Below, one piece after another: positions 35,971-45,393 of a stretch of DNA of 64,000 nt (position 1 is its first letter; each line of letters opens with the position of its first letter). The notes under the pieces were generated by a model. That model was not told where the DNA came from. It ran no database searches and saw only the letters and a list, made by a program, of their open reading frames with translations. Source of the DNA: Thermus amyloliquefaciens (GTDB taxonomy: Bacteria > Deinococcota > Deinococci > Deinococcales > Thermaceae); the NCBI RefSeq assembly GCF_000744885.1, contig NZ_JQMV01000003.1, positions 992,001-1,056,000 on the forward strand, given 5' to 3'. Both the position numbers and the translations under genes were made by a program.

Positions 35971-38010
35971 GTGCGCACCACCTGTCCCTATTGCGGCGTG
36001 GGCTGCCAGGTGGAACCCAGGCTGAGGGAGGGCCGCATCGTGGAGGTGCGGGGCGCCGAGATCCCCCCCAACCACGGGGCCCTCTGCGTGAAGGGCCGCT
36101 TTGGCCTGGACTTCCCCTTCTCCAAAAAGCGCCTCCTCTACCCCATGGTGCGGGAAAGCCGCCAAGAGCCCTTCCGCCGGGTGAGCTGGGAGGAAGCCCT
36201 GGACCATGCGGCCCGAAAGCTTCTGGAAGTCCTCCAGCGAAAGGGTCCCAAGGCCCTGGCCGTCTTCCCCTCCGCCAAGACCACCAACGAGGAGGTCTAC
36301 CTGGCCCAGAAGCTGGCCCGGGCCCTTCTTGGGACCAACCACGTGGACCACTGCTCCCGCCTCTGCCACTCCTCCTCCACCGCCGCCCTTTCCCGCTCCC
36401 TGGGCGGGGCCAGCATGACCAACCCCATAGAGGACATCTGGAAAACCGATCTCTTCCTGGTGGTGGGCTCCAACACCACGGAAACCCACCCGGTGATCGG
36501 GGCCATGATCAAGAAAAGGGTCCGGCAGGGGGCAAGGCTCCTCGTGGTGGACCCCCGGTACACGGGCATGGCCGAGGCGGCCACCCTTTGGCTCCGCCCC
36601 CGCCCAGGCACGGACCTCTTCCTCTTCAACGCCATGGCCCGGTACATCCTGGAGGAGGGCCTTTGGGACCAGGAATACGTCAAGGAGCGCACGGAGGGCT
36701 TTGCCGAGTGGCAGGCCTCCCTGGACCCCTATACCCTCGAGGAGGCCGAGCGCCTCACGGGGGTGGAAAAGGAGAAGATCGCCCTGGCCGCGAGGCTCTA
36801 CGCCACCACGGAAAGGGCTGGGGCCTACTGGGCCATGGGCCTCACCCAGCACACCAAGGGAACGGCCACCGTCCAGGCCCTGGTGAACCTGGCCCTCCTC
36901 ACGGGCAAGGTGGGCCGGGAAGGGGCGGGCCTAAACCCCTTGCGGGGCCAGAACAACGTGCAGGGGGCGGGGGACATGGGGGGCCTGCCCGACGTCTTCC
37001 CGGGGTACCTGAAGGTGTCGGATGTAACGGCCAGGCGGCGCTTTGAAGCCCTCTGGGGGGTGAGCCTAAACCCCGAGCCCGGCCTGCGCATGACCGAGGT
37101 GTTTGCCGCCATCCCCGAGGTGGAAGCCCTCTACCTCATCGGGGAGGACCCGGTGACCAGCGAGCCTTACCAGGACCACCTGAAGGCCAAGCTGGAAGCC
37201 CTTCCCTTCCTCATCGTCCAGGACATCCTGGAAAACGAGACCACCCCCTTCGCCCACGTGGTCCTGCCCGCGGCCAGCTTCCTGGAAAAGGACGGCACCT
37301 TCACCAACACCGACCGCCGGGTCCAGCGGGTGCGAAAAATCCTGGACCCCCCAGGCGAGGCCCGTCCCGACTGGTGGATCACCCGGGAACTGGGAAAACG
37401 CCTGGCCCAGGCCCTGGGCCGCCCCTGGACCCTCCACCCGGGCCCCGAGGCCATCTGGGAGGAGATCCGCCGGGCGGTTCCGGAAATGATGGGCGGGATC
37501 ACCTATCGGCGCCTGGAGGAGCAAGGCGTGCGTTGGCCCTGCCCCCAGGAGGACCACCCCGGCGAGGCGGTGCTTTTCCGCCAGCGCTTCAACACCCCCT
37601 CGGGGAAGGCCCGCTTTATCCCAGTCCACTTCACCCCGCCGGCGGAAACCCCCTCGGAGGAGTACCCCCTGGTCCTCTCCACCGGCCGGGTGCTCTACCA
37701 CTGGCACGGGGGCACCCTAAGCCGCAACAGCCGGCTCCAGGAGGCCTACCCGGAGCTCAAGGTGGAGGTGAACCCGAAGGACGCCCAAAGGTTAGGGATC
37801 GGGGACGGGGAGCCCATCCAGGTGGTGAGCCGCCGGGGCCGGATCCGGGCCCGGGCCTGGGTCACGGACCGCACCCCCGAAGGGGTGGTCTACGCCCCCT
37901 TCCACTTCGCCGAGGCCCCCGCCAACCGCCTCACCCAAGACGCCCTGGACCCCATAAGCCGCATCCCCGAGTACAAGGTGGCGGCGGTACGCCTGGAGAA
38001 ACTGGACTGA
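35971..38010 (+). CDS. fdhF: Formate dehydrogenase catalytic (molybdopterin) subunit
   Basis: A 679-residue molybdopterin oxidoreductase. The N-terminal [4Fe-4S] ligands are Cys5, Cys8, Cys12 and Cys39, with Lys41 after them. HCSRLCHSSS at 127-136 places Cys132-His133 where E. coli FdhH has selenocysteine 140-His141, so it is a cysteine-type formate dehydrogenase. Further marks are NPLRGQNNVQGAGDMG, the family-specific segment near 325-340, and the C-terminal molydopterin-binding ARAWVTDRTPEGVVYAPFHF. The GTG start has GGAGG just upstream. No fdhD sulfurtransferase gene is in view. Nitrate-reductase-like relatives lack this CH pair. Confidence 0.92.
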   Translation: MRTTCPYCGVGCQVEPRLREGRIVEVRGAEIPPNHGALCVKGRFGLDFPFSKKRLLYPMVRESRQEPFRRVSWEEALDHAARKLLEVLQRKGPKALAVFPSAKTTNEEVYLAQKLARALLGTNHVDHCSRLCHSSSTAALSRSLGGASMTNPIEDIWKTDLFLVVGSNTTETHPVIGAMIKKRVRQGARLLVVDPRYTGMAEAATLWLRPRPGTDLFLFNAMARYILEEGLWDQEYVKERTEGFAEWQASLDPYTLEEAERLTGVEKEKIALAARLYATTERAGAYWAMGLTQHTKGTATVQALVNLALLTGKVGREGAGLNPLRGQNNVQGAGDMGGLPDVFPGYLKVSDVTARRRFEALWGVSLNPEPGLRMTEVFAAIPEVEALYLIGEDPVTSEPYQDHLKAKLEALPFLIVQDILENETTPFAHVVLPAASFLEKDGTFTNTDRRVQRVRKILDPPGEARPDWWITRELGKRLAQALGRPWTLHPGPEAIWEEIRRAVPEMMGGITYRRLEEQGVRWPCPQEDHPGEAVLFRQRFNTPSGKARFIPVHFTPPAETPSEEYPLVLSTGRVLYHWHGGTLSRNSRLQEAYPELKVEVNPKDAQRLGIGDGEPIQVVSRRGRIRARAWVTDRTPEGVVYAPFHFAEAPANRLTQDALDPISRIPEYKVAAVRLEKLD

Positions 38011-38018
38011 CAAGCCCC

Positions 38019-39095
38019 CTAGACGGTGGGGAAGGCGAAGCTTTCGTAGCCCAGCTCCGCCACGGAGAACCAGCGGTACTGCTCGTTGCGGAAGGCCCAG
38101 TAGGCGGCGTACACCTTGCGGTAGGTGGCGTCCTTGGCTGCCTGCTCCTCGTAGAGGGCCCGGGCCTCCTCGAGGGCCTTCTTCATGATCTCCGCGGGCC
38201 AGCGGCGCAGGCGCACCCCCGCCTTGAGGAGGCGGTTCAGGGCCGGGGGGTTCTGGGCGTCGTACTTGGCCATCATGGTGAGGTTGACCTCCGCGGCCGC
38301 CACCTGGAAGGCCTCCTGGAACTCCTTGGGAAGCCGTTGCCACTCCCTTTGGGAAACCAGGAAGGAGAGCTGGGCGCTGGGCTCCCAGAAGGAGGGGTAG
38401 TAGTAGTAGCGGGCCACCTTGTAAAAGCCCAGCTTCTCGTCGTCATAGGGGCCGGAAAACTCGGTGGCGTCTATGGTGCCCCGCTCCAGGGCCGGGTAGA
38501 TGTCCCCCGCGGCCAGGGTCTGGGGCACCACCCCAAGCCGCCCTATCACCAGGCCGCCAAGGCCAGGAATGCGCATGCGCAGGCCCTTGAGGTCGGCCAA
38601 GGTCCGGATCTCCTTGCGGAACCATCCCCCCATCTGGGCCCCGGTGTTGCCCCCGGGGAACTGGAGCACGCCAAAGTCGGCATAGACCTGGCGCAGGAGC
38701 TCCAAGCCCCCGCCATGGCGCATCCAGGCGTTGTGTTGCCGGTAGGTCATGCCGAAGGGCACGCCCCCGTCAAAGGCCAGGGTCGGGTTCTTTCCCACGT
38801 AGAAGGGGCCGTAGGTGTGGCCCGCCTCCACGGTCCCCTGCTGGACCGCATCCAGCACCTGGCCCCCGGGCACGATCTCCCCCGCCTGGTAGACCCGGAT
38901 CTGAAAGCGCTCCCCGGTGAGCTCCGCCACCCGCTTGGCCAGGTCCTCGGCGCCCCCGTAGAGGGTATCCAGGCTCCTGGGGTAGCTGGAGACAAGCCGC
39001 CAGCGCACCTGGGGGGTGGCCTGGGCGAAGGCCCTAAAGGAAAGGCTTGCCGCCAGGCCCACCCCTGCCTTTAGAAGGAACTGCCGCCGCCTCAT
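38019..39095 (-). CDS. dctP: TRAP transporter solute-binding protein (DctP family, likely lactate or 2-oxo acid)
   Basis: A 358-residue periplasmic protein. The signal begins MRRRQFLLKAGVGLAASLS, with a Tat-like RRRQF and an alanine cleavage site near residue 25. The mature part has the DctP features: SLDTLYGGAEDLAKRV, QAGEIVPGGQVLDAVQQGTVE, LKGLRMRIPGLGG with the Arg that binds the solute carboxylate, and ERGTIDATEFSGPYDDEK. It resembles, from memory, the T. thermophilus calcium-lactate-binding TRAP protein. No DctQ or DctM membrane genes are adjacent. TATACT precedes it with a GGAGG site. It converges on fdhF. Confidence 0.87.
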   Translation of the reverse strand: MRRRQFLLKAGVGLAASLSFRAFAQATPQVRWRLVSSYPRSLDTLYGGAEDLAKRVAELTGERFQIRVYQAGEIVPGGQVLDAVQQGTVEAGHTYGPFYVGKNPTLAFDGGVPFGMTYRQHNAWMRHGGGLELLRQVYADFGVLQFPGGNTGAQMGGWFRKEIRTLADLKGLRMRIPGLGGLVIGRLGVVPQTLAAGDIYPALERGTIDATEFSGPYDDEKLGFYKVARYYYYPSFWEPSAQLSFLVSQREWQRLPKEFQEAFQVAAAEVNLTMMAKYDAQNPPALNRLLKAGVRLRRWPAEIMKKALEEARALYEEQAAKDATYRKVYAAYWAFRNEQYRWFSVAELGYESFAFPTV

Positions 39096-39159: not shown

Positions 39160-39522
39160 TTAACCCCTCGCCGCTAAAAGCGCCTCCACCTGGGCCAGAA
39201 GCGCCTGGGACTCAAAGGGCTTGCCCAAAAAGGCCTGCGCCCCCGCCTCCAAGGCCTCCTGCCGGCTTCTTTCGGAAACGCTGGCGGAAAGGGCCAGAAT
39301 GGGGCTGGAAAGGCCAAGCGCCCGTACCTTTTGGATCACCTCCAGGCCCGAAACCCCCGGCATCACCAGATCGCACACCAAAAGGTCGTAGGGCTCGGAT
39401 AGCCTCTCCAAGGCCGCCTGGCCGGAAGCGGCCCAGTCCACCTGGTGCCCCGCCCGCTCCAGGATCCGGCGCACCAGGTGGGCCACCAAGGGCTCGTCCT
39501 CAACCAGAAGGATGCGGGCCAT
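39160..39522 (-). CDS. Single-domain response regulator (receiver only)
   Basis: A 120-residue CheY-like receiver. Acidic pair Glu8/Asp9 in LLVEDEP, phosphoacceptor Asp51 in LLVCDLVMPGVSG, Ser79 in LALSAS and Lys101 in FLGKPF are all present. There is no output domain, so it must act by protein-protein contact or as a phosphotransfer step. It overlaps the end of the histidine kinase gene by 23 bases, which makes the two an obvious pair. Confidence 0.88.
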   Translation of the reverse strand: MARILLVEDEPLVAHLVRRILERAGHQVDWAASGQAALERLSEPYDLLVCDLVMPGVSGLEVIQKVRALGLSSPILALSASVSERSRQEALEAGAQAFLGKPFESQALLAQVEALLAARG

Positions 39523-42439
39523 ACACAGGCAGGATAACCCTAAAGAGGCTTCCCTTCCCCTCCTCGCTTTCCACCTCAATCCGGCCCCCGTGGGCCTCCA
39601 CGATGTGCTTGGAGATGAAAAGGCCAAGCCCCGTGCCCGACACCCCCCGGGCGCTGGCGTTCTTGGCCCTGGCGTAGCGCTGGAAAAGCCTGGGAAGCTC
39701 CTCCTTGGGAATGCCCGGGCCGGTGTCCTCCACCTCCACCCTCACGCTTCCCGCCTCCTCCCAGGCCCGAAGGCGTACCCTTCCCCCTGGCGGGGTGAAC
39801 TTGAAGGCATTGGAGAGCAGATTCCCCACCACCTGGAGCACGCGGTCAGGGTCGGCTTCCAGAAGGGGCAGGTCCGCCACCTCCACCTCAAAAGCCACCC
39901 CGGAAAGCCGGGCCACCCCCTGGAAGCTTCGGGCCAGGTCCAGCAAGAGGGGCTTCAGGTTGACCGGCCTTTTGGAAACCTCAAACCGCCCCGCCTCGAG
40001 GCGGCTGGTGTCCAGGAGGTTGTCCACCATGGTCTTGAGGCGAAAGGAACTCTCTAGGATCAGGTCCACGGATTCCCGGGCGGTTTCGGAAAGGCCCTCC
40101 TCCCGCAGGAGCTCCGCCAGGCCCATGATCACCGCCAGAGGGGTCCTGAGCTCATGGCTCACCGCGGCGATGAACTCCCCCTTAAGCCGCTCCGCCTCCA
40201 ACCGGGGCCTGAGGTCGTGAAGGTCCACCACCACCCCCCGCACCCGGGGGTCCTCCAGGAGGTTTTGCCCCCAGGCCTCCATGGGGATGGGGGTGCCGTC
40301 CGCATGGAGGACGCGAAACTCGCCCGTGCGCACCTCCGAGGGGGAGGAAAGAAGCTCCCGGAATAAGGCCTCCGCCACGGGGCGGTCATCGGGATGGACG
40401 AACTCCAGACCGTTAACCCTTGCCCGCTTATACCCCTCGGGATCGTAGCCCAGCACGTGGCGTACGCTGGCGCTCACAAAGCGGATCATCCCCTCCCCGT
40501 CAAGAACGTAGATGACATCCTGGGAATGCTCCAAAAGAGCCTTGAGGCGCTCCTCCTCCAGCTCCAGAAGCTCCAGGAAGCGGGCCTTCTGCACCGAGAG
40601 GGCCAAGAGGGTCCCCACCTGGGCCAGCCGGGCAAGAAGCCTTTCGGAAAAGCGCCGCTCCTTCCGGTAGCCCACCAGCACCGCACCCCGCGCCTCCCCT
40701 GCCCCAAAGGGCACCACCAGGGCGCTTTTGAGCCCCAGGGCCTCGGCCAGGGCGCAGTCCTCCGGGCCGAGGGTTTCGGCCCCCAAGGGGGCAAACCCTC
40801 CCTCCTGCCCAACCGCCACCCGGTCCAGGGCCCTCCGCAGAAGGTTGGGCTGAGGGGGGCCCTCGGGAAGGGGGCAGGTGGCGTAGAGCACCCTGGGCAC
40901 CCCCTCCACCTCGAGGAAAAAGAGCCCCTCATCCGCGGCAAAGAGGCCCCTCAGGCGCTCCACCACCCCGCGGCCCAAGGCGGCGAGGTCCCGCTCCCGC
41001 AGGGCCTCCTGGGCCAGGTCCACCAGGGCCTGGGTGAAGGCCACCTGGTCCCGGAGGGCCCGCTCCATGCGGGTGCGCTCGGTGATGTCGTGGAGGACCA
41101 GGATGCGCATCCCCTCCACCTGTTTGCCCCGGACGCTGTAGGTGGCCCCGCCCAGGCTAACCTCCACCCGCCCCCCTTCCAGGGCAGGCCCCAGGCTTGC
41201 GGGCAGGTCCTCCAGGGCCATCTCCCGCCTCAGACCCAAGGCCTCCCGCGCCCGGCTGTTGGCGTAACCCTGCTCCCCAAAGAGCACCACCACCCCATCG
41301 GGAAGCTCCTCCAAAATCTCCGAAAGCCGCTTCCTTTCCGCGGCCAGGGCCAGGGAGAGCTGCGTCTTTTCCCGGTAAAGCTGGGAGTTCCTGAGGGCCA
41401 CCCCTGCCACCCCCGCAAGGAGCTCCACATAGCGCACCTCCTCCTCGCTCACCGCGGGCCCCCCGGGCCCGTGGTCCACGGCCACCGCCCCCAAGGGCTC
41501 ACCCTCCGCCAGGATGGGCACGAAGGCCACCCGGGCCCCCACCTCCGGGGCCACGTGGGGAGGAAGCTGGTGCCTATCCACCAAGAGGGTCCTTCCCTCC
41601 CGCACCGCCCGGGCCAAGGGATCGGAGGAGGCCCCGAGGGGAAGGTGGATGCGGCTACGCCCTTCCGTCCAGTAAAGGGCTTCCCCCTTGAGGGTCAGGT
41701 ACCCCTCCAGGTAGGCACCAAGGCGACCCGAGCCCTCCCCCTTGATCAAGGCCACCGTCACCCGGAAAAAGCCAAACCGCTCCGAGAGGGAGCGGGCCAG
41801 GGTTTCCAGCACCGCATTGGGCTCGAGGACCCGCCCCACCTCCCTGGCCAGGGCGGTCACGTGGGAAAGCGCCTCCACGTGGCGGAACAGCTGGGCAAAG
41901 GCCCGGTTGCGCTCCGCCCAAAGCTCGCCGTTTTTCAGGGCCAGGGCGGTGAGCTGGGCGAGAAGGGGAAGAAGGGGCCTTAGGGCCTGGGGAACCCCTT
42001 CCAGGCTGAGCACCCCCTTAGGGGCAAACCGGGGGCAACTGGGGCAGACCAGGGCCCGGGTTTCCCGGCTCGCCCGGGGGCGCTCCGTGCACCGGGATTC
42101 GGGGTCCGCCCAGCAGTACGAGGTCTCCTCCCCCACCACGGGCAACAGCCACTCCTCCCCCACCTTTACGGGGCCCTCGGCGAAAAAAGCCTCCTGCACA
42201 GGCCCCCTGGCGTGGAGGGGCAGGGCGATGGAGGAAACCGTGTAGTGCCGCCCTCGGCCCGAGGCCACCTCCCCCACCAGTTCCCGGGTGCCCTTGTGGT
42301 AGAGGAACAGGGCCGCCCGTTCCACCCCTTCCTCCGTGGCCACCTCCAGGAGGTTGCGCAAAATCTGAATGGGCTCCAAATCCTTTAGCAGCGCCCGCTG
42401 GAATCGCCCAAGAATCTCCCACTGACCCACAGATCGCAT
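39500..42439 (-). CDS. Large cytoplasmic sensor histidine kinase (GAF-GAF-PAS-GAF-PAS-HisKA-HATPase) with a four-cysteine motif
   Basis: 979 residues with no membrane segment. First GAF-like domain about 1-160, carrying Cys109, Cys117, Cys132 and Cys135 (C-x7-C-x14-C-x2-C). Second GAF about 190-350; PAS about 365-460; third GAF about 470-620; PAS about 630-745. HisKA has phosphoacceptor His762 in SHELRTPL, and the ATPase has NLLSNAFKF and DTGPGIP. The cysteines suggest an iron-sulfur or zinc site and hence redox or oxygen sensing; this is inference. The frame stays open far upstream, antisense to the next operon, but the ATG at 42439, with TACCAT 9 bases before it, is the sensible start. It is divergent from the acyl-CoA dehydrogenase-etf operon. 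Confidence 0.85.
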   Translation of the reverse strand: MRSVGQWEILGRFQRALLKDLEPIQILRNLLEVATEEGVERAALFLYHKGTRELVGEVASGRGRHYTVSSIALPLHARGPVQEAFFAEGPVKVGEEWLLPVVGEETSYCWADPESRCTERPRASRETRALVCPSCPRFAPKGVLSLEGVPQALRPLLPLLAQLTALALKNGELWAERNRAFAQLFRHVEALSHVTALAREVGRVLEPNAVLETLARSLSERFGFFRVTVALIKGEGSGRLGAYLEGYLTLKGEALYWTEGRSRIHLPLGASSDPLARAVREGRTLLVDRHQLPPHVAPEVGARVAFVPILAEGEPLGAVAVDHGPGGPAVSEEEVRYVELLAGVAGVALRNSQLYREKTQLSLALAAERKRLSEILEELPDGVVVLFGEQGYANSRAREALGLRREMALEDLPASLGPALEGGRVEVSLGGATYSVRGKQVEGMRILVLHDITERTRMERALRDQVAFTQALVDLAQEALRERDLAALGRGVVERLRGLFAADEGLFFLEVEGVPRVLYATCPLPEGPPQPNLLRRALDRVAVGQEGGFAPLGAETLGPEDCALAEALGLKSALVVPFGAGEARGAVLVGYRKERRFSERLLARLAQVGTLLALSVQKARFLELLELEEERLKALLEHSQDVIYVLDGEGMIRFVSASVRHVLGYDPEGYKRARVNGLEFVHPDDRPVAEALFRELLSSPSEVRTGEFRVLHADGTPIPMEAWGQNLLEDPRVRGVVVDLHDLRPRLEAERLKGEFIAAVSHELRTPLAVIMGLAELLREEGLSETARESVDLILESSFRLKTMVDNLLDTSRLEAGRFEVSKRPVNLKPLLLDLARSFQGVARLSGVAFEVEVADLPLLEADPDRVLQVVGNLLSNAFKFTPPGGRVRLRAWEEAGSVRVEVEDTGPGIPKEELPRLFQRYARAKNASARGVSGTGLGLFISKHIVEAHGGRIEVESEEGKGSLFRVILPVYGPHPSG

Positions 42440-42448
42440 CTGCTTCCA

Positions 42449-42454
42449 ATGGTA
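42449..42454 (-). promoter_or_regulatory. -10 box of the histidine kinase operon
   Basis: TACCAT on the minus strand, 9 bases before the start codon; TTGCAA lies 15 bases further upstream as a weakly spaced -35. Confidence 0.45.
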
Positions 42455-42469
42455 GCATGGGGAGCGGGG

Positions 42470-42498
42470 TTGCAAGGGGTTAGGCAAAATCTTAGACT
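42470..42498 (+). promoter_or_regulatory. Promoter of the acyl-CoA dehydrogenase-etfBA operon
   Basis: -35 box TTGCAA (42470-42475), exact 17-bp spacer, -10 box TAGACT (42493-42498). The leader is about 40 bases long and contains a GGGGGAGG ribosome site. The TTGCAA word is palindromic and also points at the divergent kinase gene. Confidence 0.75.
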
Positions 42499-42541
42499 GG
42501 GTCAAAGAGTAGGGCCCCTGGCCCCTAGGGGGAGGAAAGCC

Positions 42542-43687
<1,146 letters not shown>

Positions 43688-43697
43688 GAGGTAGGGG

Positions 43698-44441
43698 ATG
43701 AAGTTCATAGCGGTCATCAGGCAGGTACCGGACGGGGAAAGCAGGCTTAGGATCCAAGGGGACCGGGTGGACCTTTCCGGGGCCACCCTGATCCTAGACC
43801 AGATGGACGAGTACGGGGTGGAGGAGGCCCTTCGCCTCAAGGAGAAGCACGGGGGGGAGGCAGTGGTGGTGGGCTTCGGCCCGGAGCGCACCGAGGAGGC
43901 CATCCGCACCGCCTTGGCCATGGGGATGGATCGGGGCATCCACGTGGTTTACGAGGGCTATGCGGATCCCGTGACCGTGGCCGAGGCCCTGGCCCCCATC
44001 CTGAAGGAGGAGTCCCCCACCCTTATCCTGACGGGGGGGCAGCAGGCGGACTGGGATAGCCAGGCCCTGGGCGGGGCCCTGGCGGAGGCCCTGGGCGTCC
44101 CGGTGGTGGCCTGGACCACCGCCCTCGAGCTGGAAGGGGAAACCGCCAAGGCCAAGCACGACCTGGACGAGGGGGCCGAGTGGGTCCGGGTGCGGCTTCC
44201 TGCGGTCTTCACCACGCAACAGGGCTTGAACGAGCCCCGCTACCCCACCCTGCCCGGCATCATGAAGGCCAAGAAGAAGGAGATCAAAAAGGTCCCCTTT
44301 GGCGGCGGAAGCCGGGTGGAGATCCTGCAGGAGAGCATCCAGGAGAAAACCCGGCTTCAGAAGGTTCTGGATGGCAAGGATCCCGTGGCCGCGGCCGAGG
44401 AGCTGGTGCGGCTTTTGCACGAGGAAGCCAAGGTGATTTGA
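43698..44441 (+). CDS. etfB: Electron transfer flavoprotein beta subunit
   Basis: A 247-residue EtfB of normal length that binds AMP and accepts electrons from acyl-CoA dehydrogenases. Family features are MKFIAVIRQVPDGE, DQMDEYGVEEALRLKEKHGG, ILTGGQQADWDSQALGGALAEALG and the recognition-loop region ARLPAVFTTQQGLNEPRYP-like (here VRLPAVFTTQQGLNEPRYP). AGGAGGTAGGGG precedes the ATG. The partner etfA follows 10 bases later. Confidence 0.94.
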   Translation: MKFIAVIRQVPDGESRLRIQGDRVDLSGATLILDQMDEYGVEEALRLKEKHGGEAVVVGFGPERTEEAIRTALAMGMDRGIHVVYEGYADPVTVAEALAPILKEESPTLILTGGQQADWDSQALGGALAEALGVPVVAWTTALELEGETAKAKHDLDEGAEWVRVRLPAVFTTQQGLNEPRYPTLPGIMKAKKKEIKKVPFGGGSRVEILQESIQEKTRLQKVLDGKDPVAAAEELVRLLHEEAKVI

Positions 44442-44451
44442 GGAGGCGACC

Positions 44452-45393
44452 ATGATCCTGGTGGTTTTGGACCACGATGGAAGCAGGTTGAGGAAGGCGA
44501 GCCTCGAGGCCCTCACCCGGGCCCGAAGGCTGGCGGAGGCCCTAGGGGAACGGGTTGCCGGGGTGCTTTTGGCTGAGGGCCAAGCCCCTGTGGAGGAGGC
44601 CCGAGGCCACGTGGAGACCCTTTACGTGGCCGAGCTCGGCCCCTACACCGCGGAGAAGTGGGCGGCGGGCATCCTGGAGGCCGCCAAGGCGGGGGTGAAG
44701 GCCATCGTGGCCCCCTCCTCCCGGCAAAGCCGCACCTATTTGGGCCGGGTGGCCTACGCCTTGAAGGCGGGGCTACTGGAGGACACCCTGGACTCCTGGG
44801 CGGAAGGGGGCCAGGTCTACGCCACCCGCTACGCCTACCTGAACCGGGTGACGCAGAAGGTGCGAAGCGCCCTCCCCGTGGTGCTCACGGTAAAGCCCAA
44901 CACCACCCCCTTGGCCGAACCCCTGGGCGCTCAGGGCGAGGTGGTGGCCCTGAGCCTGCCCCCCGTGGCCACGGTGGAGGTGCTGGAGAGGGTGCAGGAG
45001 GAGAAAAAGGGCGTCTCCCTCACCGAGGCGGACGTGGTGGTCACGGGCGGCCGCGGCCTGGGGAGTCCGGAGGCCTTCCAAAAGGTGGAGGAGCTGGCCG
45101 CCCTCCTGGGCGGGGCCGTGGGGGCCACCCGGGCGGTGGTGGATGCCGGCTGGCGGCCCTACAGCGAACAGGTGGGCCAGACCGGAAAGACCGTGCAACC
45201 CTCCCTCTACATCGCCCTGGGGGTTTCTGGGGCGGTGCAGCACCTGGCGGGGATGAACAAGAGCAAGTACATCGTGGCGGTGAACAAGGACCCCGAGGCC
45301 CCCATCTTCAAGCATGCGGACTACGGCATCGTGGGGGATGTGCACCAGGTGCTTCCCGCCCTGATCCATGCGGTGAAGAAACTGAAGGACTAG
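44452..45393 (+). CDS. etfA: Electron transfer flavoprotein alpha subunit
   Basis: A 313-residue EtfA. The N-terminal domain (about 1-185) is followed by the FAD-binding domain with VVTGGRGLGSPEAFQKVEEL, GATRAVVDAGWRPYSEQVGQTGKTV, YIALGVSGAVQHLAGM and NKDPEAPIFKHADYGIVGD, all strongly conserved. It delivers electrons from several acyl-CoA dehydrogenases in this window to ETF:quinone oxidoreductase. A strong hairpin terminator follows. Confidence 0.95.
   Translation: MILVVLDHDGSRLRKASLEALTRARRLAEALGERVAGVLLAEGQAPVEEARGHVETLYVAELGPYTAEKWAAGILEAAKAGVKAIVAPSSRQSRTYLGRVAYALKAGLLEDTLDSWAEGGQVYATRYAYLNRVTQKVRSALPVVLTVKPNTTPLAEPLGAQGEVVALSLPPVATVEVLERVQEEKKGVSLTEADVVVTGGRGLGSPEAFQKVEELAALLGGAVGATRAVVDAGWRPYSEQVGQTGKTVQPSLYIALGVSGAVQHLAGMNKSKYIVAVNKDPEAPIFKHADYGIVGDVHQVLPALIHAVKKLKD

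Follow-up and report, generated by a model that had tools for sequence, protein, structure and literature searches.

Described Iron-Sulfur Sensor Kinases and the Thermus Kinase

AirS (YhcS) of Staphylococcus binds a [2Fe-2S] cluster through an N-terminal C-x7-C-x-C-x17-C motif, and the oxygen-sensing kinase NreB holds a [4Fe-4S] cluster on four cysteines of a PAS domain (PMC4601167). In CSK/Hik2, a [3Fe-4S] cluster is found in a GAF domain; CSK has no obvious cysteine motif, and one cysteine ligand has been shown (PMC6949291).

The DNA analyzed here is a stretch of 64,000 nucleotides (the window) from Thermus amyloliquefaciens, a species whose strain YIM 77409T is a facultatively anaerobic nitrate reducer (PMC4769583). 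It encodes a cytoplasmic sensor histidine kinase (39500-42439, minus strand) with four N-terminal cysteines spaced C-x7-C-x14-C-x2-C. The kinase resembles AirS in having an N-terminal four-cysteine cluster with a C-x7-C first pair, but the rest of the motif differs from the published AirS spacing. Similarly, NreB is a cytoplasmic kinase with four N-terminal cysteines; however, these lie in a PAS domain and are spaced otherwise, while the Thermus cysteines fall in a predicted GAF fold. Moreover, the NreB partner NreC is a DNA-binding regulator, whereas the Thermus receiver has no output domain. The likeness to CSK/Hik2 would be a redox cofactor site in the GAF domain of a histidine kinase, provided that the Thermus protein has the presumed cofactor, but CSK/Hik2 is a GAF-HisKA kinase with one conserved cysteine in place of a four-cysteine motif. 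By analogy, the Thermus kinase may work like these three proteins, while by motif it belongs with none of them.

Domain Organization of the Kinase

Translation of the gene gives 979 residues, and the start is supported by the orthologues, which share a conserved MR(L/S)VGQ at the same beginning. The domain order is GAF-CW, GAF, PAS, GAF, PAS, HisKA, HATPase. Pfam detects the second GAF domain (residues 207-349; 41393-41821), a PAS domain (residues 630-742; 40214-40552), the HisKA dimerization and phospho-acceptor domain (39989-40183; E 1e-20), with His762 in the sequence SHELRTP, and the HATPase catalytic domain (39524-39853; E 5e-32), with intact N, G1, and G2 boxes, all on the minus strand. 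Nothing before residue 207 rises above the Pfam cut-off. The cytoplasmic location proposed in the original prediction holds, as no segment is hydrophobic enough for a membrane helix (the highest Kyte-Doolittle mean over 19 residues is 1.44).

The only cysteines of the protein are residues 109, 117, 132, 135, 522, and 562; the first four are exactly those of the original prediction. If six cysteines were placed at random, four of them would lie within 27 of the 979 residues with a probability of about 0.001, but conservation, rather than this clustering, is the real test of the motif. The two remaining cysteines had been described as scattered. They are indeed the only others but they are not random, being kept in most close orthologues that align there (Cys522 in 19/21 and Cys562 in 22/22) and absent from the distant copies.

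The first domain (residues 1-183; 41891-42439, minus strand) was modeled with AlphaFold2 from a 15-sequence alignment, with a mean pLDDT of 91.4. The best structural matches of the model are GAF domains (PtsP GAF, Z 14.7; PDE5, 14.2; phytochromes, 12-13), which match over 130-150 residues. The Pfam GAF model stays below its cut-off in the window protein and is weak in relatives. A GAF alpha/beta fold is predicted at high confidence, in agreement with the original placement of the cysteines in a first GAF-like domain. In the model, the motif forms an insert linking the GAF strands 96-102 and 140-147 and holding short helices at 113-116 and 128-134, while a long helix (154-182) extends from the domain toward the second GAF. 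We call the four-cysteine segment, residues 109-138 (CWADPESRCTERPRASRETRALVCPSCPRF; 42026-42115, minus strand), the CW module.

Conservation of the Four-Cysteine Insert

Copies were sought with residues 1-183 in 61 relatives (tblastn) and with a profile of the domain in 111 Deinococcota genomes. This led to 37 true copies in 35 Deinococcota genomes. Of the 27 Thermus genomes, 26 have the domain, and the one lacking it is 65% complete; two Thermus genomes have a second copy. Outside Thermus, the domain was found in the sister genus (G028), in further genera of the same family, and in two additional families. Those full-length copies that were examined are all histidine kinases that begin with the GAF-CW domain. 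A profile match in G070 was rejected as an unrelated GAF of an HD-GYP protein, and a search of plasmids found no copy of the domain.

All four cysteines are present with the same spacing in 37/37 copies, down to about 33% identity, and none is replaced by His or Asp. For 36 of the copies, this was scored on alignments made without a motif filter and for one (G075) on the full-length alignment, where the four cysteines are found in 34/34 sequences. The alignment of Thermus and Meiothermus homologues proposed with the original prediction thus finds the cysteines kept together; their loss at random, which would have counted against the motif, was looked for and not seen. Among 15 diverse members, which share 33-92% identity with the window protein, Trp110, Pro113, Pro121, Arg128, Phe138, and Gly142 are also invariant. 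Invariant columns make up 10/34 of the insert versus 7/149 elsewhere in the domain (Fisher P 1e-4).

Some copies stand in altered genes. The kinase gene is shortened to a 274-aa frame in G011 (locus L045, 5636-6457), where part of the receiver is lost as well, and to a 195-aa frame in G022 (L043, 5391-5975); both keep the four-cysteine GAF domain and have lost the kinase core, by what may be natural loss or an assembly fault. The copy of G039 (L041, 5106-9474) is apparently frameshifted: the four-cysteine domain stands in a 371-aa frame, and a 1161-aa frame that overlaps it encodes GAF, PAS, and the kinase core. In another genus of the family, two genomes (L039, 88-5813, and L040) have the four-cysteine GAF kinase in a tail-to-tail arrangement with a receiver, and at L039 a bacteriophytochrome kinase comes before that receiver.

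Relation to the Two-CW Domain

The NCBIfam two_CW_domain (NF045718) has a curated cut-off of 35 bits. This model has no match in the genome of the kinase at E values up to 10 and weakly matches 3 of 15 members of the four-cysteine domain (best E 0.013); the kinase domain thus falls outside the family, in which both CW halves score above the cut-off. For comparison, 22 two-CW domains were gathered with NCBI's own model and their second halves were read. These have C-W-x6-C-x14-C-x2-C in 20 of the 22 and x15 in two, which is the cysteine and tryptophan pattern of the kinase insert; the two share C-W-x6-C-x14-C-x2-C-x2-[FY]. In addition, the two-CW domains have a conserved Lys at the position of Arg128 of the kinase, 11 residues after the second Cys.

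A profile-profile comparison (hhalign) of the insert with the two-CW domain gave P values of 1.5e-5 to 1.8e-5, and none of 200 column-shuffled profiles reached the real score (maximum 16.0 vs 25.9). The first, three-cysteine half of the two-CW domain did not align with the kinase domain in the profile comparison. Because spacing, profile P value, and shuffle control agree, the insert is most likely, as judged by sequence comparison, one half of a two-CW domain moved into a GAF domain. An origin by convergence, though conceivable, would need to recreate 30 columns of spacing. The two systems share the Cys/Trp pattern, the basic residue, and their occurrence in signaling proteins; they differ in that the kinase has a single half, built into the GAF domain of a histidine kinase.

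When 398 Bacillota_A genomes were searched with a profile of the module alone, the best and only true match was a chemoreceptor with a C-terminal two-CW domain. No true matches were found in 398 Pseudomonadota, 194 Cyanobacteriota, and 199 Planctomycetota genomes; the best match in these three phyla, L152, was rejected as out-of-frame inside a cheA gene. The two-CW domain may also occur in Desulfobacterota and Chloroflexota. The two-CW proteins checked are all chemoreceptors (9/9), and the alignment of the domains (A3, loci L099-L125) has seven invariant cysteines, three in the first half and four in the second. L099 is a stand-alone two-CW domain of 97 aa. The predicted two-CW model has a pLDDT of 91.9, with no Foldseek match in the PDB better than E 6, and sequence and fold searches of the PDB returned no solved structure matching the CW module. 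We found no literature on the function or the ligand of the two-CW domain.

Gene Neighborhood and the Proposed Link to Fatty-Acid Oxidation

The start of a single-domain response regulator of 120 aa (39160-39522, minus strand) overlaps the end of the kinase gene. Pfam detects a lone REC domain, in agreement with the original description of a receiver without an output domain; its phospho-acceptor Asp, in CDLVMPG, and the Ser and Lys switch residues are all present. Such a receiver could pass the signal on through contact with another protein or through a phosphorelay. In most Thermus, the third gene of the kinase operon encodes a TRAP-transporter solute-binding protein, DctP (38019-39095, minus strand; Pfam). 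In two Thermus genomes, G002 and G004 (loci L139 and L144), it is replaced 3' of the receiver by what its sequence suggests is a P-type cation ATPase, in agreement with the HB8 annotation of TTHA1141, so that DctP is not an obligatory partner. A gene for a molybdopterin oxidoreductase that carries an Fe4S4 domain at its N-terminus (35971-38010 in the window) is oriented convergently to the kinase operon in most Thermus genomes.

Pfam and synteny confirm that the kinase is divergent from an operon (42542-45393, plus strand) encoding an acyl-CoA dehydrogenase (acd; 42542-43687), etfB (43698-44441), and etfA (44452-45393). The dehydrogenase gene probably begins at 42542, which leaves an intergenic gap of about 100 bp. 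This region (42440-42541) has strong phylogenetic footprints in 22 sequences. One is a FadR-type operator, TTAGACTGGGTCAAA (42492-42506, plus strand; also written TTAGACTnGGTCAAA), with one mismatch to the consensus TTRNACYNRGTNYAA from a T. thermophilus study (PMC5597230). It is conserved in 22/22 sequences of the genus and overlaps the putative acd-etf -10. The other is a palindromic TTGCAA block (42470-42475, no strand assigned), 17 bp from TAGACT on the acd side, which could serve as the -35 of both divergent promoters.

The T. thermophilus kinase TTHA1143, with its receiver, is likewise divergent from the dehydrogenase-etfBA genes, with a FadR site between; on gene order only, it is evidently the orthologue of the window kinase, and we found no reported function for it. 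In an HB8 fadR deletion, TTHA1144-1146 were up 5.7-, 5.7-, and 4.7-fold, while TTHA1143 was unchanged at 0.9-fold (PMC5597230). The site and this derepression together place the etf genes under FadR.

The original prediction had the kinase sense the electron flow of fatty-acid oxidation and control acd-etfBA. The divergent order, with the kinase-receiver pair, is indeed preserved in those Thermus loci that were read through, as well as in the sister genus, but it is limited to these, the more distant copies of the four-cysteine domain having no adjacent etf genes. Furthermore, the operon already has a regulator in FadR, the receiver has no DNA-binding domain, and the two Thermus genomes with a shortened kinase gene retain etf. 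A kinase-to-etf circuit is thus unsupported and, in our estimate, very improbable; the neighborhood may be due solely to a bidirectional promoter that both sides share.

Probable Ligand and Proposed Sensing Mechanism

The four cysteines, kept in every copy, support the metal or iron-sulfur site of the original prediction, and the insert is likely such a site. The invariant cysteines with Trp and Arg, the lack of His or Asp replacements, and the chemoreceptor homologues argue for a metal site and favor an Fe-S cluster over zinc. Taking strict conservation, the GAF model, and the two-CW match together, we infer that the kinase is best interpreted as a metal sensor with a CW module embedded in its GAF domain, for which Fe-S is likelier than zinc. 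We found no report of a metal measurement for the kinase or for any two-CW protein.

Structural Zn2+ would brace the insert and leave sensing to the GAF pocket or to the later GAF/PAS domains. CxxC with two further cysteines is a common arrangement for zinc, and equally normal for it; small metal knots are also frequent in proteins of thermophiles. Absolute cysteine conservation would also suit a structural site. Over long divergence, however, zinc sites usually accept exchanges to His or Asp, at odds with the uniform cysteines here, and the homologous two-CW half occurs, with its seven invariant cysteines, in chemoreceptors of Bacillota_A, mostly anaerobes, where Fe-S fits at least equally well. 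A zinc precedent among PAS kinases is WalK, whose regulation by zinc is cited in a passage of PMC8534201. On balance, we consider structural zinc unlikely, though it keeps real weight. A metal-free thiol/disulfide switch responding to peroxide, sulfide, or quinones would find some backing in the CPxC sequence, which resembles redox-active dithiols, and in a cytoplasmic kinase with few other cysteines. But two cysteines would suffice for this, whereas all four are invariant together with Trp, two Pro, Arg, and Phe, and the four recur in another fold context, the two-CW domain; such a switch is improbable.

We therefore lean, with slightly better than even confidence, to a soluble kinase in which an Fe-S cluster on the CW insert of the GAF domain senses and signals to the lone receiver. 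For the metal, cluster type, signal, and output, we infer the following scheme. Cys109, Cys117, Cys132, and Cys135, with Trp110 and Arg128 nearby in sequence, would make a small module holding a 2Fe or 4Fe cluster, zinc being less likely. A change in the cluster, whether by reduction or oxidation, by NO, or by its loss to O2 or peroxide, would displace the module along with the helices at both ends of the GAF domain. The C-terminal helix 154-182 could then relay the signal through the later GAF/PAS domains to His762, from which phosphate would pass to the neighboring lone receiver.

Significance

T. thermophilus lacks FNR, and how it senses oxygen and redox state is poorly understood; the GAF domain of DnrS is its proposed O2 sensor (PMC6282519, PMC5748679). 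DnrS was rejected as a homologue, the domain profile matching only the described kinase in the genome of the window. The kinase would be a useful second, genus-wide GAF-based candidate sensor beside DnrS, and it is likely a new form of GAF-type redox sensor kinase, one that employs a single half of the two-CW domain. More tentatively, at a little under even confidence, the CW module may be a portable Fe-S unit for redox or gas sensing, single in the GAF kinases of Deinococcota and, in other phyla, doubled to the two-CW domain of chemoreceptors. No ligand assignment was found for the two-CW domain, and the Thermus version is compact, thermostable, soluble, and inside a GAF domain. The question is directly testable in Thermus, as T. 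thermophilus has genetics and the apparent orthologue TTHA1143. If the module is indeed a portable Fe-S unit, an experiment on the Thermus domain would give the cofactor for a widespread domain of unknown function.
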